Source: Syntrophomonas sp. (GTDB taxonomy: Bacteria > Bacillota > Syntrophomonadia > Syntrophomonadales > Syntrophomonadaceae). Taken from it: a stretch of DNA of 64,000 nt. The notes under the pieces were generated by a model that saw only the letters and a list, made by a program, of their open reading frames with translations, did not search any database and had not been told where the DNA came from. Numbering within the stretch: the stretch's first letter is position 1; every line of letters begins with the position of its first letter. The stretch lies in contig JAENYG010000009.1 in NCBI GenBank assembly GCA_016841875.1, positions 62,001 to 126,000 on the forward strand, written 5' to 3'. The position numbers were made by a program, and so were the translations under genes. Of this stretch, positions 7,334 through 21,182 are shown piece after piece.

Positions 7334-7361
7334 GGGGACCTCATTAATATAGAGGCCTTTT
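7334..7361 (+). terminator. Weak terminator after folD
   Basis: GG-A-CCTC (7336-7342) pairs with GAGG-CC (7352-7357) with a bulged A, followed by TTTT. It separates folD from the next MBL gene. Confidence 0.35.
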
Positions 7362-10379: not shown

Positions 10380-10682
10380 AATTATAAATCCCCCTTTTAA
10401 CATATTTCCCATACTACCCTCAAAAAACCATTACCACTCACTCCTATAATTCGAGAGGGATAATACAAAATCCTGCCGATAAAACGTGATAAATAACGTT
10501 AATCTAATGAAAATAACGATGTAACCATAAAAGCCTCGGAAAATCGACTTTTTAAAACAACTTTCGCAGTTGACATATTGTAATAACTTGGGAACAGGCG
10601 AAAACGATGCTTTATCATGCCGGCCCCTCCGATCGCAACCTATACACCAATTGGCCATAATTAACGATGCACCTCCTGGCAC

Positions 10683-10740
10683 AGCCCCGAAACGGGACAA
10701 CTGATGTGTATTCACTTCGTTACTGCACTATTAAGGTTGC
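10683..10740 (+). repeat. Diverged copy of a two-hairpin repeat (copy 1)
   Basis: CCCC..GGG stem-loop, then ACAACTGAT, then stem GTGTA (10706-10710) / TGCAC (10724-10728) around a 13-nt loop TTCACTTCGTTAC. It matches copies at 11347 and 11416 in layout, spacing and loop sequence, while the stem differs but still pairs (one G-T wobble). The 94-residue minus-strand frame at 10431-10715 runs through this repeat and is judged spurious. Confidence 0.65.
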
Positions 10741-11120
10741 TGATACTCCCGCTGGCCGTCATTAATGACGCAGCCGGTCTCTAATTGATCAAGGCAGATT
10801 CTCTATCTAAGCATGCTTGCTCTTCAAGCTGTATTTCGGTTATAGCTGCCTGTTTACTTAATGGTAGTGAGGGCACGAACATGGAATCCACGTTATCAAT
10901 AGTGACGTAATTCTATGGAGTCACATCTGTTGCCCGGTACGGGCTCCTCAGACCAGCATCATGCTCCCCCCATCCGAGTGCGAAAGTGAATTTCTGCTTC
11001 CAGGAGCTTTATGGTCTAGGGTGATTGTCAGGCAAGTAATCAAAATATGCAGTGCTTATGGTAGGGGAATAAGATATGGTGTATAGTAGTGCAGGCAGCT
11101 GCTAATATATAATGCCATTT
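10741..11120. other. Gap without an intact gene
   Basis: Apart from the weak HsdS-like fragment at 10781-10912, I see no supported reading frame, tRNA or known RNA class here. Short palindromes are present (for example CCCGGTACGGG near 10933). The region between copy 1 and copies 2-3 of the two-hairpin repeat may be a decayed accessory segment. Confidence 0.4.
10781..10912 (-). pseudogene. Possible fragment of a type I R-M specificity/methylase C-terminus
   Basis: A 43-codon open stretch ending at TAG (10781-10783) reads ...S-L-P-L-S-K-Q-A-A-I-T-E-I-Q-L-E-E-Q-A-C-L-D-R-E. This resembles the P-L-P-P-L-x-x-Q-x-x-I-V-x-E-I-E tail common to HsdS subunits and some DNA methylases. There is no start codon and the upstream frame is stopped, so at best it is a decayed remnant. 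This is weak, composition-dependent evidence. Confidence 0.22.
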
Positions 11121-11121
11121 G

Positions 11122-11130
11122 TGTTATAAT
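11122..11130 (+). promoter_or_regulatory. Extended -10 promoter for the microprotein gene
   Basis: TGTTATAAT, a TGn-TATAAT extended -10 element, ends 34 nt before the ATG at 11165. No good -35 box is seen at 17 nt, which is typical of extended -10 promoters. Confidence 0.45.
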
Positions 11131-11164
11131 AATTTAGTGATTATCGAACGAGGAGGAAGCTCTT

Positions 11165-11269
11165 ATGGAAGAATTGTCTAAACTGGTTAGACATGACCTG
11201 CTTCGCACATTAATATGGGCTTTGATTGCCATGGGAGTTGCAGGGGCTGTATACTATCTAGTATGGTAA
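11165..11269 (+). CDS. 34-residue single-pass membrane microprotein
   Basis: A short gene not resembling any family I recognise. ATG 11165 has GAGGAGGAAGCTCTT directly upstream, and the frame ends at TAA 11267. The N-terminal dozen residues (M-E-E-L-S-K-L-V-R-H-D-L) are charged and amphipathic. The rest (residues 13-33) is a hydrophobic helix with Gly/Ala spacing (ALIAMGVAGAVYYLVW). It has its own extended -10 promoter and is followed by a GGGGG/CCCCC terminator at 11290-11311, so it is a complete transcription unit. Candidate roles (regulator of a membrane complex, small toxin) are guesses; no antitoxin RNA is evident. Confidence 0.65.
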   Translation: MEELSKLVRHDLLRTLIWALIAMGVAGAVYYLVW

Positions 11270-11289
11270 AAAATAATACCCAAATAAGT

Positions 11290-11315
11290 AAAGGGGGAAA
11301 TATCCCCCTTTAATT
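11290..11315 (+). terminator. Terminator, left copy of a duplicated hairpin
   Basis: AAAGGGGG (11290-11297) pairs with CCCCCTTT (11304-11311), loop AAATAT. A near-identical hairpin lies at 11712-11733, with a repeat-rich segment between the two. Confidence 0.75.
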
Positions 11316-11346
11316 CAGACCGATGACAAAAGTCCCCTCCGGGGAT

Positions 11347-11405
11347 CACCCCGTGCCGGGGCAACTGATGTGCCTTCATTTCATTGCGGCACCATTACGG
11401 GTGCA
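11347..11405 (+). repeat. Two-hairpin repeat, copy 2
   Basis: CCCC-GTGCC-GGGG stem-loop, then GCAACTGAT, then stem GTGCC (11370-11374) / GGCAC (11388-11392) around the 13-nt loop TTCATTTCATTGC, then GGGTGCA. It is adjacent to copy 3 in direct orientation. Confidence 0.8.
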
Positions 11406-11415
11406 CTTACAGCAC

Positions 11416-11475
11416 AACCCCGGGGTCGGGGCAACTGATGTACCTTCATTTCATTGCGGTACCACTATAGGTGCA
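11416..11475 (+). repeat. Two-hairpin repeat, copy 3
   Basis: CCCC-GGGGTC-GGGG, then GCAACTGAT, then stem GTACC (11440-11444) / GGTAC (11458-11462) around exactly the same 13-nt loop as copy 2. The G-C to A-T change at stem position 3 is compensated on both arms. Confidence 0.8.
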
Positions 11476-11585
11476 ATGTATGTTCGCAATGCTCACAGAT
11501 GATTAAGGGTGCAATTCTAAGCTCACTACGCTCGAAACAATTCGGAAGTCCTTACAGGAGCCCCATTGAGTTCGCGAAAGCTCAC

Positions 11586-11700
11586 AAATGATAAAGAAGC
11601 CCGCTCAATCAACGTACTCAAGTACGCCTCAATCGCGTGCTTCTTTGATGCCTTTATTTTCACTTCTTTTATCGGTCTGTCATATTGTCGACTTTGTTGA
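11586..11700 (-). repeat. Dispersed repeat, copy A (inverted relative to 21007-21130)
   Basis: The reverse complement reads GTCGACAATATGACAG, then AAAGAAGCACGCGATTGAGG, CGTACTTGAGTACGTTGATT and GAGCGGGCTT. The copy at 21007-21130 is the same with few substitutions. It contains the near-palindrome GTACTTGAGTAC and two GATTGAG(G)CG half-repeats, and has no coding sense. It lies between two copies of a GGGGG/CCCCC terminator. Confidence 0.75.
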
Positions 11701-11711
11701 TAATATGAATT

Positions 11712-11733
11712 AAAGGGGGAAACATCCCCCTTT
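11712..11733. terminator. Bidirectional terminator, right copy of a duplicated hairpin
   Basis: AAAGGGGG (11712-11719) pairs with CCCCCTTT (11726-11733), loop AAACAT. It matches the hairpin at 11290-11311 except at one loop base. It overlaps the stop of the NifX-like gene on the minus strand. Confidence 0.7.
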
Positions 11734-12103
11734 AATTATGGTCATGTTGGCAGTCTTGTTCATGGTCATGTCCTTCATGTGAACAAGTTTCATTGGTAGC
11801 CTGCAGGGTATTGCTCAAATAAGCACCTAAGATCTGGTCTACCGTGCCGCTTAATCCGGTAATGGTATGGATATTATTTTCCGCAAAAAGGTCACGAGCT
11901 CGTTGACCCATGCCTCCGGCAATTACCACATGAACTCCCTGCTGGTGCAAAAAGGGTGGCAGAATACCTGGTTCATGCCCGGGGTTCTGCAAAACGCTCT
12001 GATTAATAACTTTATGATCCTCAATATCATATATTACGAAGTTATCACAGTGCCCGAAATGCTGAGCAGCTTCATTACCAGTTCTAGCTATGGCTAATCT
12101 CAT
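11732..12103 (-). CDS. NifX/NafY-type dinitrogenase iron-molybdenum cofactor family protein
   Basis: 123 residues from ATG 12103. The family (NifB C-terminal/NifX/NafY-like) binds Fe-S or metal-cluster precursors; stand-alone members are widespread in anaerobes without nitrogenase. The core is typical: LAIAR at the start, HFGHCDNF around 15-22, and the GMGQRARDLF and VDQILGAYL blocks. The last 20 residues are His/Asp-rich (H-E-G-H-D-H-E-Q-D-C-Q-H-D-H), a likely metal-binding tail. The frame also has an ATG at 12112, but AGGGAG abuts that codon and is correctly spaced for 12103. It is isolated from nif genes, so the role is probably metal or redox-cofactor handling (inference). Confidence 0.8.
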   Translation of the reverse strand: MRLAIARTGNEAAQHFGHCDNFVIYDIEDHKVINQSVLQNPGHEPGILPPFLHQQGVHVVIAGGMGQRARDLFAENNIHTITGLSGTVDQILGAYLSNTLQATNETCSHEGHDHEQDCQHDHN

Positions 12104-12384
12104 ATTTTTCATCTCCCTATTGTTTATTTTGGTTAAGAAAGTTAAATTGATTTTGCGCCTCCCTGTCTAACTTATTATTTCAAGCTCAACTAGTTTTTAG
12201 TCCAAGTTCATATTATAAAAATAATGGGCATATGTCAACAACTAGTCCTTGTTTATCAATTTTTATGAGAAGGATTTTATAATTCCAATCTTAATGATAA
12301 GGTTTTATTTTGATGATTATTAAAGTACCATGATAGACATAATAAAAAATAAAATAAATTTACCGAGGTATACTGTGTGCAAGA

Positions 12385-20982: not shown

Positions 20983-21182
20983 ATCCCCATGCTCGGCATG
21001 GGGATTTCATATTGTCGACAAGGTCGGCAAGATGCCAGGTTAATGACAGAAATGAAGATCAAGGCATGAAAGAAGCTCGCGATTGAGGCGTACTTGAGTA
21101 CATTGATTGAGCGGGCTTATTGAAATAACGCAGATATTCATTTTTATCATTGGGCTGACATCCCCATGCTCGGCATGGGGAT
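20983..21182. repeat. Dispersed repeat copy B framed by a duplicated terminator hairpin
   Basis: The 23-bp hairpin ATCCCCATGC-TCG-GCATGGGGAT occurs at 20983-21005 and again, identical, at 21160-21182. Between them, 21007-21130 is the dispersed repeat also found inverted at 11586-11700 (shared: AAAGAAGC.CGCGATTGAGGC, then GTACTTGAGTAC, then TTGATTGAGCGGGCTT). Either hairpin can act as terminator for ireB. There is no coding sense inside. Confidence 0.8.

Follow-up and report, generated by a model that had tools for sequence, protein, structure and literature searches.

The locus raises the question of what a short two-hairpin repeat is doing at three places in a 64,000-nucleotide stretch of Syntrophomonas sp. 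DNA (contig JAENYG010000009.1; the whole stretch is referred to here as the window). The preliminary description had noted paired changes in a stem around a fixed loop, and had offered an RNA element, an attC-type recombination site or a mobile palindrome as explanations. The analysis reported here indicates that the repeats are probably modules carried inside small, non-autonomous mobile elements, and that the element carrying two of the copies, designated E, inserts at intrinsic terminator hairpins and leaves copies of the hairpin on both sides.

The three copies are real and form one 69-nt direct-repeat family at 10672-10740, 11336-11404 (74%) and 11406-11474 (62%), with spacings of 664 and 70 nt, and the sequence does contain the stems and loops given earlier. 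With a covariance model built from the 42 copies of alignment A1 (below), the module was placed on the plus strand at 10678-10745 (copy 1, within a composite repeat termed type 2; 70.3 bits), 11342-11409 (copy 2; 93.9 bits) and 11411-11479 (copy 3; 77.8 bits), with expectation values of 1.8e-17 to 5e-24, copies 2 and 3 being among the model's own sequences. These two copies do lie in tandem, both inside one element, E. A degenerate fourth copy faces copy 1 on the minus strand at 10898-10944 (24.2 bits, expectation value 1.3e-4). The core pattern CAACTGATGTNNNTTCA occurred 13 times in the window's genome and the reversed pattern not at all, and it is therefore not a product of chance. It was also found in the records of metagenome-assembled Syntrophomonas sp. 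BM5_bin.8 and BL5_bin.17, and gave zero matches in viral contigs. A search of the genome and its relatives, as had been proposed, recovered the module in 21 of 63 genomes of the order (covariance model, expectation value ≤ 1e-4), although a few of the weakest matches, for example in L289 and L293, do not resemble the module when read.

Covariation of the stem was confirmed both in the module's own group and among divergent copies. Alignment A1 comprised 42 distinct copies, drawn from three genomes (that of the window and those of two congeners), with 2 of 44 references left out. One stem pair was GC in 19 copies, AU in 17 and GU in 4, and the stem-pair covariation score was 0.222 versus 0.130 after shuffling (0/500) and no more than 0.104 with slid partners. 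Among 56 distinct divergent copies, the second stem varied on both sides at each of its five pairs, with 98% paired cells, in an alignment that was fitted to the covariance model and so leans towards it. Across the family the loop varies: other copies have loops and whole stems replaced. Covariation alone is no proof of function, because template switching in palindromes can also yield compensatory changes; either such switching or selection acting on the folded strand may preserve the stems.

Element E and the hairpins that flank it

Element E was located at 11316-11707 (392 bp, non-coding as read), with inverted ends CAGACCGATGACAAAAGT / ACTTCTTTTATCGGTCTG at 11316 and 11662. An asymmetric end hairpin, the reverse complement of the TTGTCGACAAAGTCGGCAAGATG type with 4 mismatches (pattern match), occupies 11681-11707 on the minus strand, and because this hairpin lies at the right, E reads on the minus strand by the standard orientation. 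The element sits exactly between two plus-strand copies of a terminator hairpin (T; AAAGGGGGAAAYATCCCCCTTT) at 11286-11315 and 11708-11737, which form a 30-nt direct repeat with 93% identity (string match). The left T lies 3' of a 34-aa ORF (11165-11269), while the right T overlaps the stop end of a minus-strand ORF (11732-12112). The DNA fold z-score for 11286-11737 was -8.8. The ORF listing held no frame of 80 aa or more within 11316-11707, and none was recognised; positions 11286-11740 gave zero matches in phage or plasmid records.

A second E of about 150 bp was found on the plus strand at 21008-21157, in a minimal form without the two-hairpin module. Its end hairpin starts at 21012 (1 mismatch), its inverted ends carry 5 mismatches each, and it is bounded by terminator hairpins at 20983-21005 and 21160-21182 (both plus strand), which are exact 23-nt repeats of each other. 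The inverted ends of E are written CAGRCCGATGAC... or CAGRCCGATGACARAAGC, and an additional end hairpin (TTGTCGACAAAGTCGGCAAGATG) is present. Short length, terminal inverted repeats and lack of coding capacity are thus all found in E, as they are in miniature inverted-repeat transposable elements (MITEs).

The flanks were compared for 57 E with a recognisable end hairpin from the window's genome and its two congeners (G000, G001 and G002); of 74 end pairs, the 17 that lack an end hairpin were left out. Cognate flanks reached the 99th percentile (score 10) of mismatched left/right flank pairs in 47 of the 57, with a mean score of 18.9 versus 5.6 for mismatched pairs. Since most loci came from E-based searches, this fraction describes elements with recognisable ends and an end hairpin, and not all relics. 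The duplicated segments folded at a median of -15.6 kcal/mol versus -0.6 kcal/mol for random stretches of the same length, and 41 distinct hairpins were represented; the duplicated stretch matches the hairpin and changes with it. Aligned duplicated segments scoring at least 14 measured 14-46 nt (median 24.5), although about 17-46 nt is the fair range because the two 14-nt cases are partial alignments. By a simple criterion a T- or A-run adjoined 19 of 46 duplicated hairpins, versus 11% at random places, so for the remaining hairpins we infer the designation "terminator". Crude ORFs at the 40 loci with enough flank gave 22 co-directional, 7 convergent and 4 divergent contexts, and 7 without a near ORF.

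Minimal elements of 148-149 nt made up 31 of the 57, and elements with modules reached about 390 bp. The modules point inward from the ends of E in 20 of 22 module matches, which were spread over 16 of the 74 elements. Tandem T-E-T-E-T arrangements were also seen.

Two pairs of filled and empty sites were found among the loci examined. At L128 (G000) the arrangement is T-E-T; at L092 (G002) there is a single hairpin, AAGCACTTCTGCGAAGTGCTCT, without E and identical to one of the two at L128. The orthologous empty site of the T-E-T at L215 (G001) lies at about 7334-7357 on the plus strand (coordinates counted by hand), where a single hairpin is followed by TTTT. The site of the window's E holds one hairpin of different sequence in G003, between the same two flanking genes; in G002 it holds a 149-bp E that is inverted relative to the window's and has the same hairpin on either side. 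Lengths of E at one site in different species were 149 and 300; 149 and 391 (window); and 149, about 324 and about 219 bp, and because they differ, modules are gained or lost in place. Judged from these sequence comparisons, T-E-T appears to be an insertion product and not the ancestral arrangement.

Target duplication (47 of 57) and empty sites (two pairs) are likewise features of MITEs, the duplication here being a whole hairpin of variable length, and E is most likely a MITE with structure-directed targeting. The mobile palindrome of the preliminary description was right in kind; the unit that moves, however, is the larger E that contains copies 2 and 3, and it is the terminator hairpin of the host that E duplicates.

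E-like sequence was detected with a 150-nt query in at least 29 of 63 genomes of the order among the matches listed, one of them in another family (G037). Twenty distant loci were taken, mostly as long matches among the matches listed, and L380 was dropped at a contig end; the hairpin was duplicated in 12 of the 19 readable loci, all from other genera. Elements without a clear duplication (10 of 57, and 7 of 19 distant ones) may have decayed or been inserted otherwise. In G003 and G004, two small genomes of the genus, the E end pattern was at background and the 150-nt query gave one weaker match each.

Solo E end hairpins adjoin terminators without the rest of E at L240-L242, L244 and L245, those of L242 and L244 being apparently orthologous. 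No transposase was found beside them when the ORF starts were read, and they are not accounted for by transposition of E. At L246:1729-1900 an E-like left end was noted whose first hairpin is seemingly broken by an apparent insertion sequence (ORF start by eye).

Proposed insertion pathway and rival explanations

Transposition of E is deduced from its apparent products. A transposase acting in trans would bind the CAG...CTG ends of E. The ends would then be joined at the hairpin foot on each strand of the terminator cruciform, or the two-fold symmetry of the target would be recognised, and gap repair would copy the entire hairpin; with cuts at both feet, the whole hairpin would thus become the target duplication. 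Each flanking gene would keep a terminator after insertion, so that insertion would be nearly harmless. Because the flanking hairpins are both direct repeats and palindromes, recombination between them could invert E as well as build tandem arrays, and examples of each were observed. The arms of E and of the type-2 repeat would both have received the two-hairpin module, a unit separate from either. We consider it an evenly balanced proposition that E is an order-wide lineage whose target rule is the terminator cruciform, with joining at both feet, a hairpin duplication of variable length and nested two-hairpin units spreading inside it.

No transposase-bearing copy with E ends was found in the stretches around the end patterns, the assemblies being fragmented, and for this reason we infer the transposase. 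Domain PF13751 (DDE_Tnp_1_6), which we take to be that of transposases of the IS1182 type, occurs in G000, G001 and G002 and was not found in G003 or G004. An IS1182-type parent was rejected, as the ends of L271, L272, L274, L275 and L277 as printed differ from those of E. The 1.3-kb end pairs at L148 and L149 and the wider pair at L150 are separate short elements or chance matches.

A role as functional RNA (in a 3' UTR, as an antiterminator or as a protein-binding RNA), with repetition of the two-hairpin unit as a secondary matter, would fit the covariation, which includes GU pairs, and the stems that are replaced while the shape is kept. We judge it unlikely: the mobile composites that contain the units vary between species at one site, the units occur in tandem arrays and in both orientations, and template switching could give the same compensatory changes. 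Nor did the RNA-element option gain from Rfam 15, which gave 0 matches in the 64-kb window at gathering score; six further loci at an expectation value of ≤ 0.05 gave only two group II intron matches, in L168. Replication slippage or template switching at terminators might have doubled the hairpins without transposition of E, since hairpins provoke template switching and tandem T-E arrays exist. The same E is flanked by 41 unrelated hairpins, however, the minimal form is constant at 148-149 nt with defined ends, and empty sites exist, all of which make this explanation highly improbable.

Movement by RAYT (Y1) transposases, as for REP/BIME-like repeats, would fit the GTAG that adjoins the first hairpin in divergent copies and the frequency of Y1 genes, of which the large genomes G000, G001 and G002 have 8, 9 and 7 versus 2 and 1 in the small G003 and G004. 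It was rejected as very unlikely because the neighbourhoods of Y1 genes are unlinked to the unit: only 1 of 41 Y1 loci has a unit within about 1.5 kb at good score, and the gene there is IS200-sized. Y1 genes are present in 17 of 21 unit-bearing genomes and in 25 of 42 without the unit, G012 has 12 units and zero Y1 genes, and to our knowledge HUH (Y1) enzymes make no target duplication. The attC-like sites of an integron share tandem hairpins of conserved shape with the repeats, but variable gene cassettes are absent between the window copies, and inspection did not reveal the GTTRRRY motif that forms the attC core; we assign this option next to no likelihood.

Descent of E from terminator-targeting group IIC introns, as a reduced derivative, draws on an identical 568-bp stretch that occurs three times in G000 (L168:706-1273, L169 and L170), has matches to Rfam RF02001 (group II) and in each case directly follows a terminator hairpin; one such terminator carries T-E-T in G002 (L158). 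The window and the E-bearing loci L208 and L365 are free of group II matches. Retrohoming, as far as we know, makes no target duplication, and we know of no inverted ends in group II introns, so that this descent has a remote chance of being correct. Use of terminators by the group II-like copies, one of them at a site of T-E-T, does lend independent support to terminators as a target class. A thrice-repeated end pattern, AACCGATGACAAAAGA, proved to be part of the 568-bp stretch and not of E.

Comparison with known systems

As a rule, a target duplication is short and dictated by the enzyme. With E it is the hairpin at the target that dictates it, in one genus (41 distinct cases) and again in others. 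In being short, non-coding, intergenic and present in many copies, with inverted ends and presumably moved in trans, E resembles bacterial MITEs; these normally have a short, fixed target duplication, whereas that of E is a whole hairpin of variable length, and E also takes up internal hairpin modules. Group IIC introns likewise insert at intrinsic terminators, but they retrohome to one side of the hairpin, which is not known to be duplicated in the process, and E shows no group II domains. Members of the IS1182 family have direct repeats of 0-60 bp according to family tables. E differs from them in lacking a transposase and in having ends unlike those of the IS1182-type copies in these genomes.

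The closest parallel is IS1272 (IS1182 family), whose target, as described in the available part of PMC5678879, is an inverted repeat of any sequence, 21-85 bp long, recognised as a structure. E similarly targets stem-loops irrespective of sequence (41 distinct hairpins). IS1272 is described there as replacing its target stem-loop without target duplication, whereas E keeps the hairpin and doubles it; end-joining at the hairpin feet with gap repair figures in the same part of that source, next to the reported replacement, as a pathway (b) that is purely hypothetical. E insertions would be natural products for this pathway, which, in the part of PMC5678879 available, is only proposed on paper for IS1272. 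In a search of the open-licence literature only this paper, as far as its available text goes, came close to hairpin duplication by a MITE at terminators. With REP/BIME units, as treated in the available part of PMC3733652, the module shares short hairpin units, tandem and mosaic arrays and, in divergent copies, GTAG beside the hairpin. It differs in being unlinked to Y1 genes, in having two hairpins per unit and in being embedded in a terminator-targeting element; the same part of PMC3733652 places GTAG repeats in Proteobacteria, Cyanobacteria, Chloroflexi and the PVC group.

By inserting at a terminator and leaving one on each side, E would show a route to near-harmless mobile DNA. If this reading is true, each insertion builds its own second terminator, and the repeats are mobile palindromes nested within one another. 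The many filled and some empty sites provide material for working out structure-directed transposition. There is also a warning in these data, as covarying stems in bacterial repeats may stem from mobile palindromes and not necessarily from regulatory RNA.

Wider family of the two-hairpin module

The composite repeat of copy 1 (type 2) has inverted ends of its own, TGGCGAGYATTATGCTTTGTC, as judged by eye. A type-2 query matched the window at 10678-10776, and the repeat was matched in the same three E-rich genomes. The two-hairpin module is a separate passenger unit in E and in the type-2 repeat.

In G005, a genome of another genus, the module is repeated in tandem with a period of about 47 nt, for up to ten consecutive units (L348), and its second hairpin alternates, for example ATGAACTTCGTTCAT / GCTCCCTAACGGTCGC. 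Together with the presence or absence of modules at orthologous E sites, these tandem 47-nt units bear out the earlier suggestion that the repeat is copied as a unit. A loose pattern applied to the fetched loci gave 182 stretches, unrelated DNA among them; 76 had stems of at least 4 pairs, all sharing a one-nucleotide offset. In divergent copies GTAG adjoins the first hairpin on the reverse strand; when checked for a tetranucleotide of this type, window copies 2 and 3 had GTTG and copy 1 had GTTG beside CCCG.

Tandem two-hairpin units reach contig ends in G003 (L295) and G004 (L301), and long arrays may therefore be absent from these assemblies. A further recurrent sequence, of the TGTGTAAATCTGTCTTATCTGTGTTATCTGTGTCTATTA...CCGCG type, often comes after the G005 arrays at L337-L350. 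In G001 and in Syntrophomonas sp. BM5_bin.8, two-hairpin and related modules directly adjoin a selenocysteine tRNA gene (L028:1328-1425 and L040:4433-4530).
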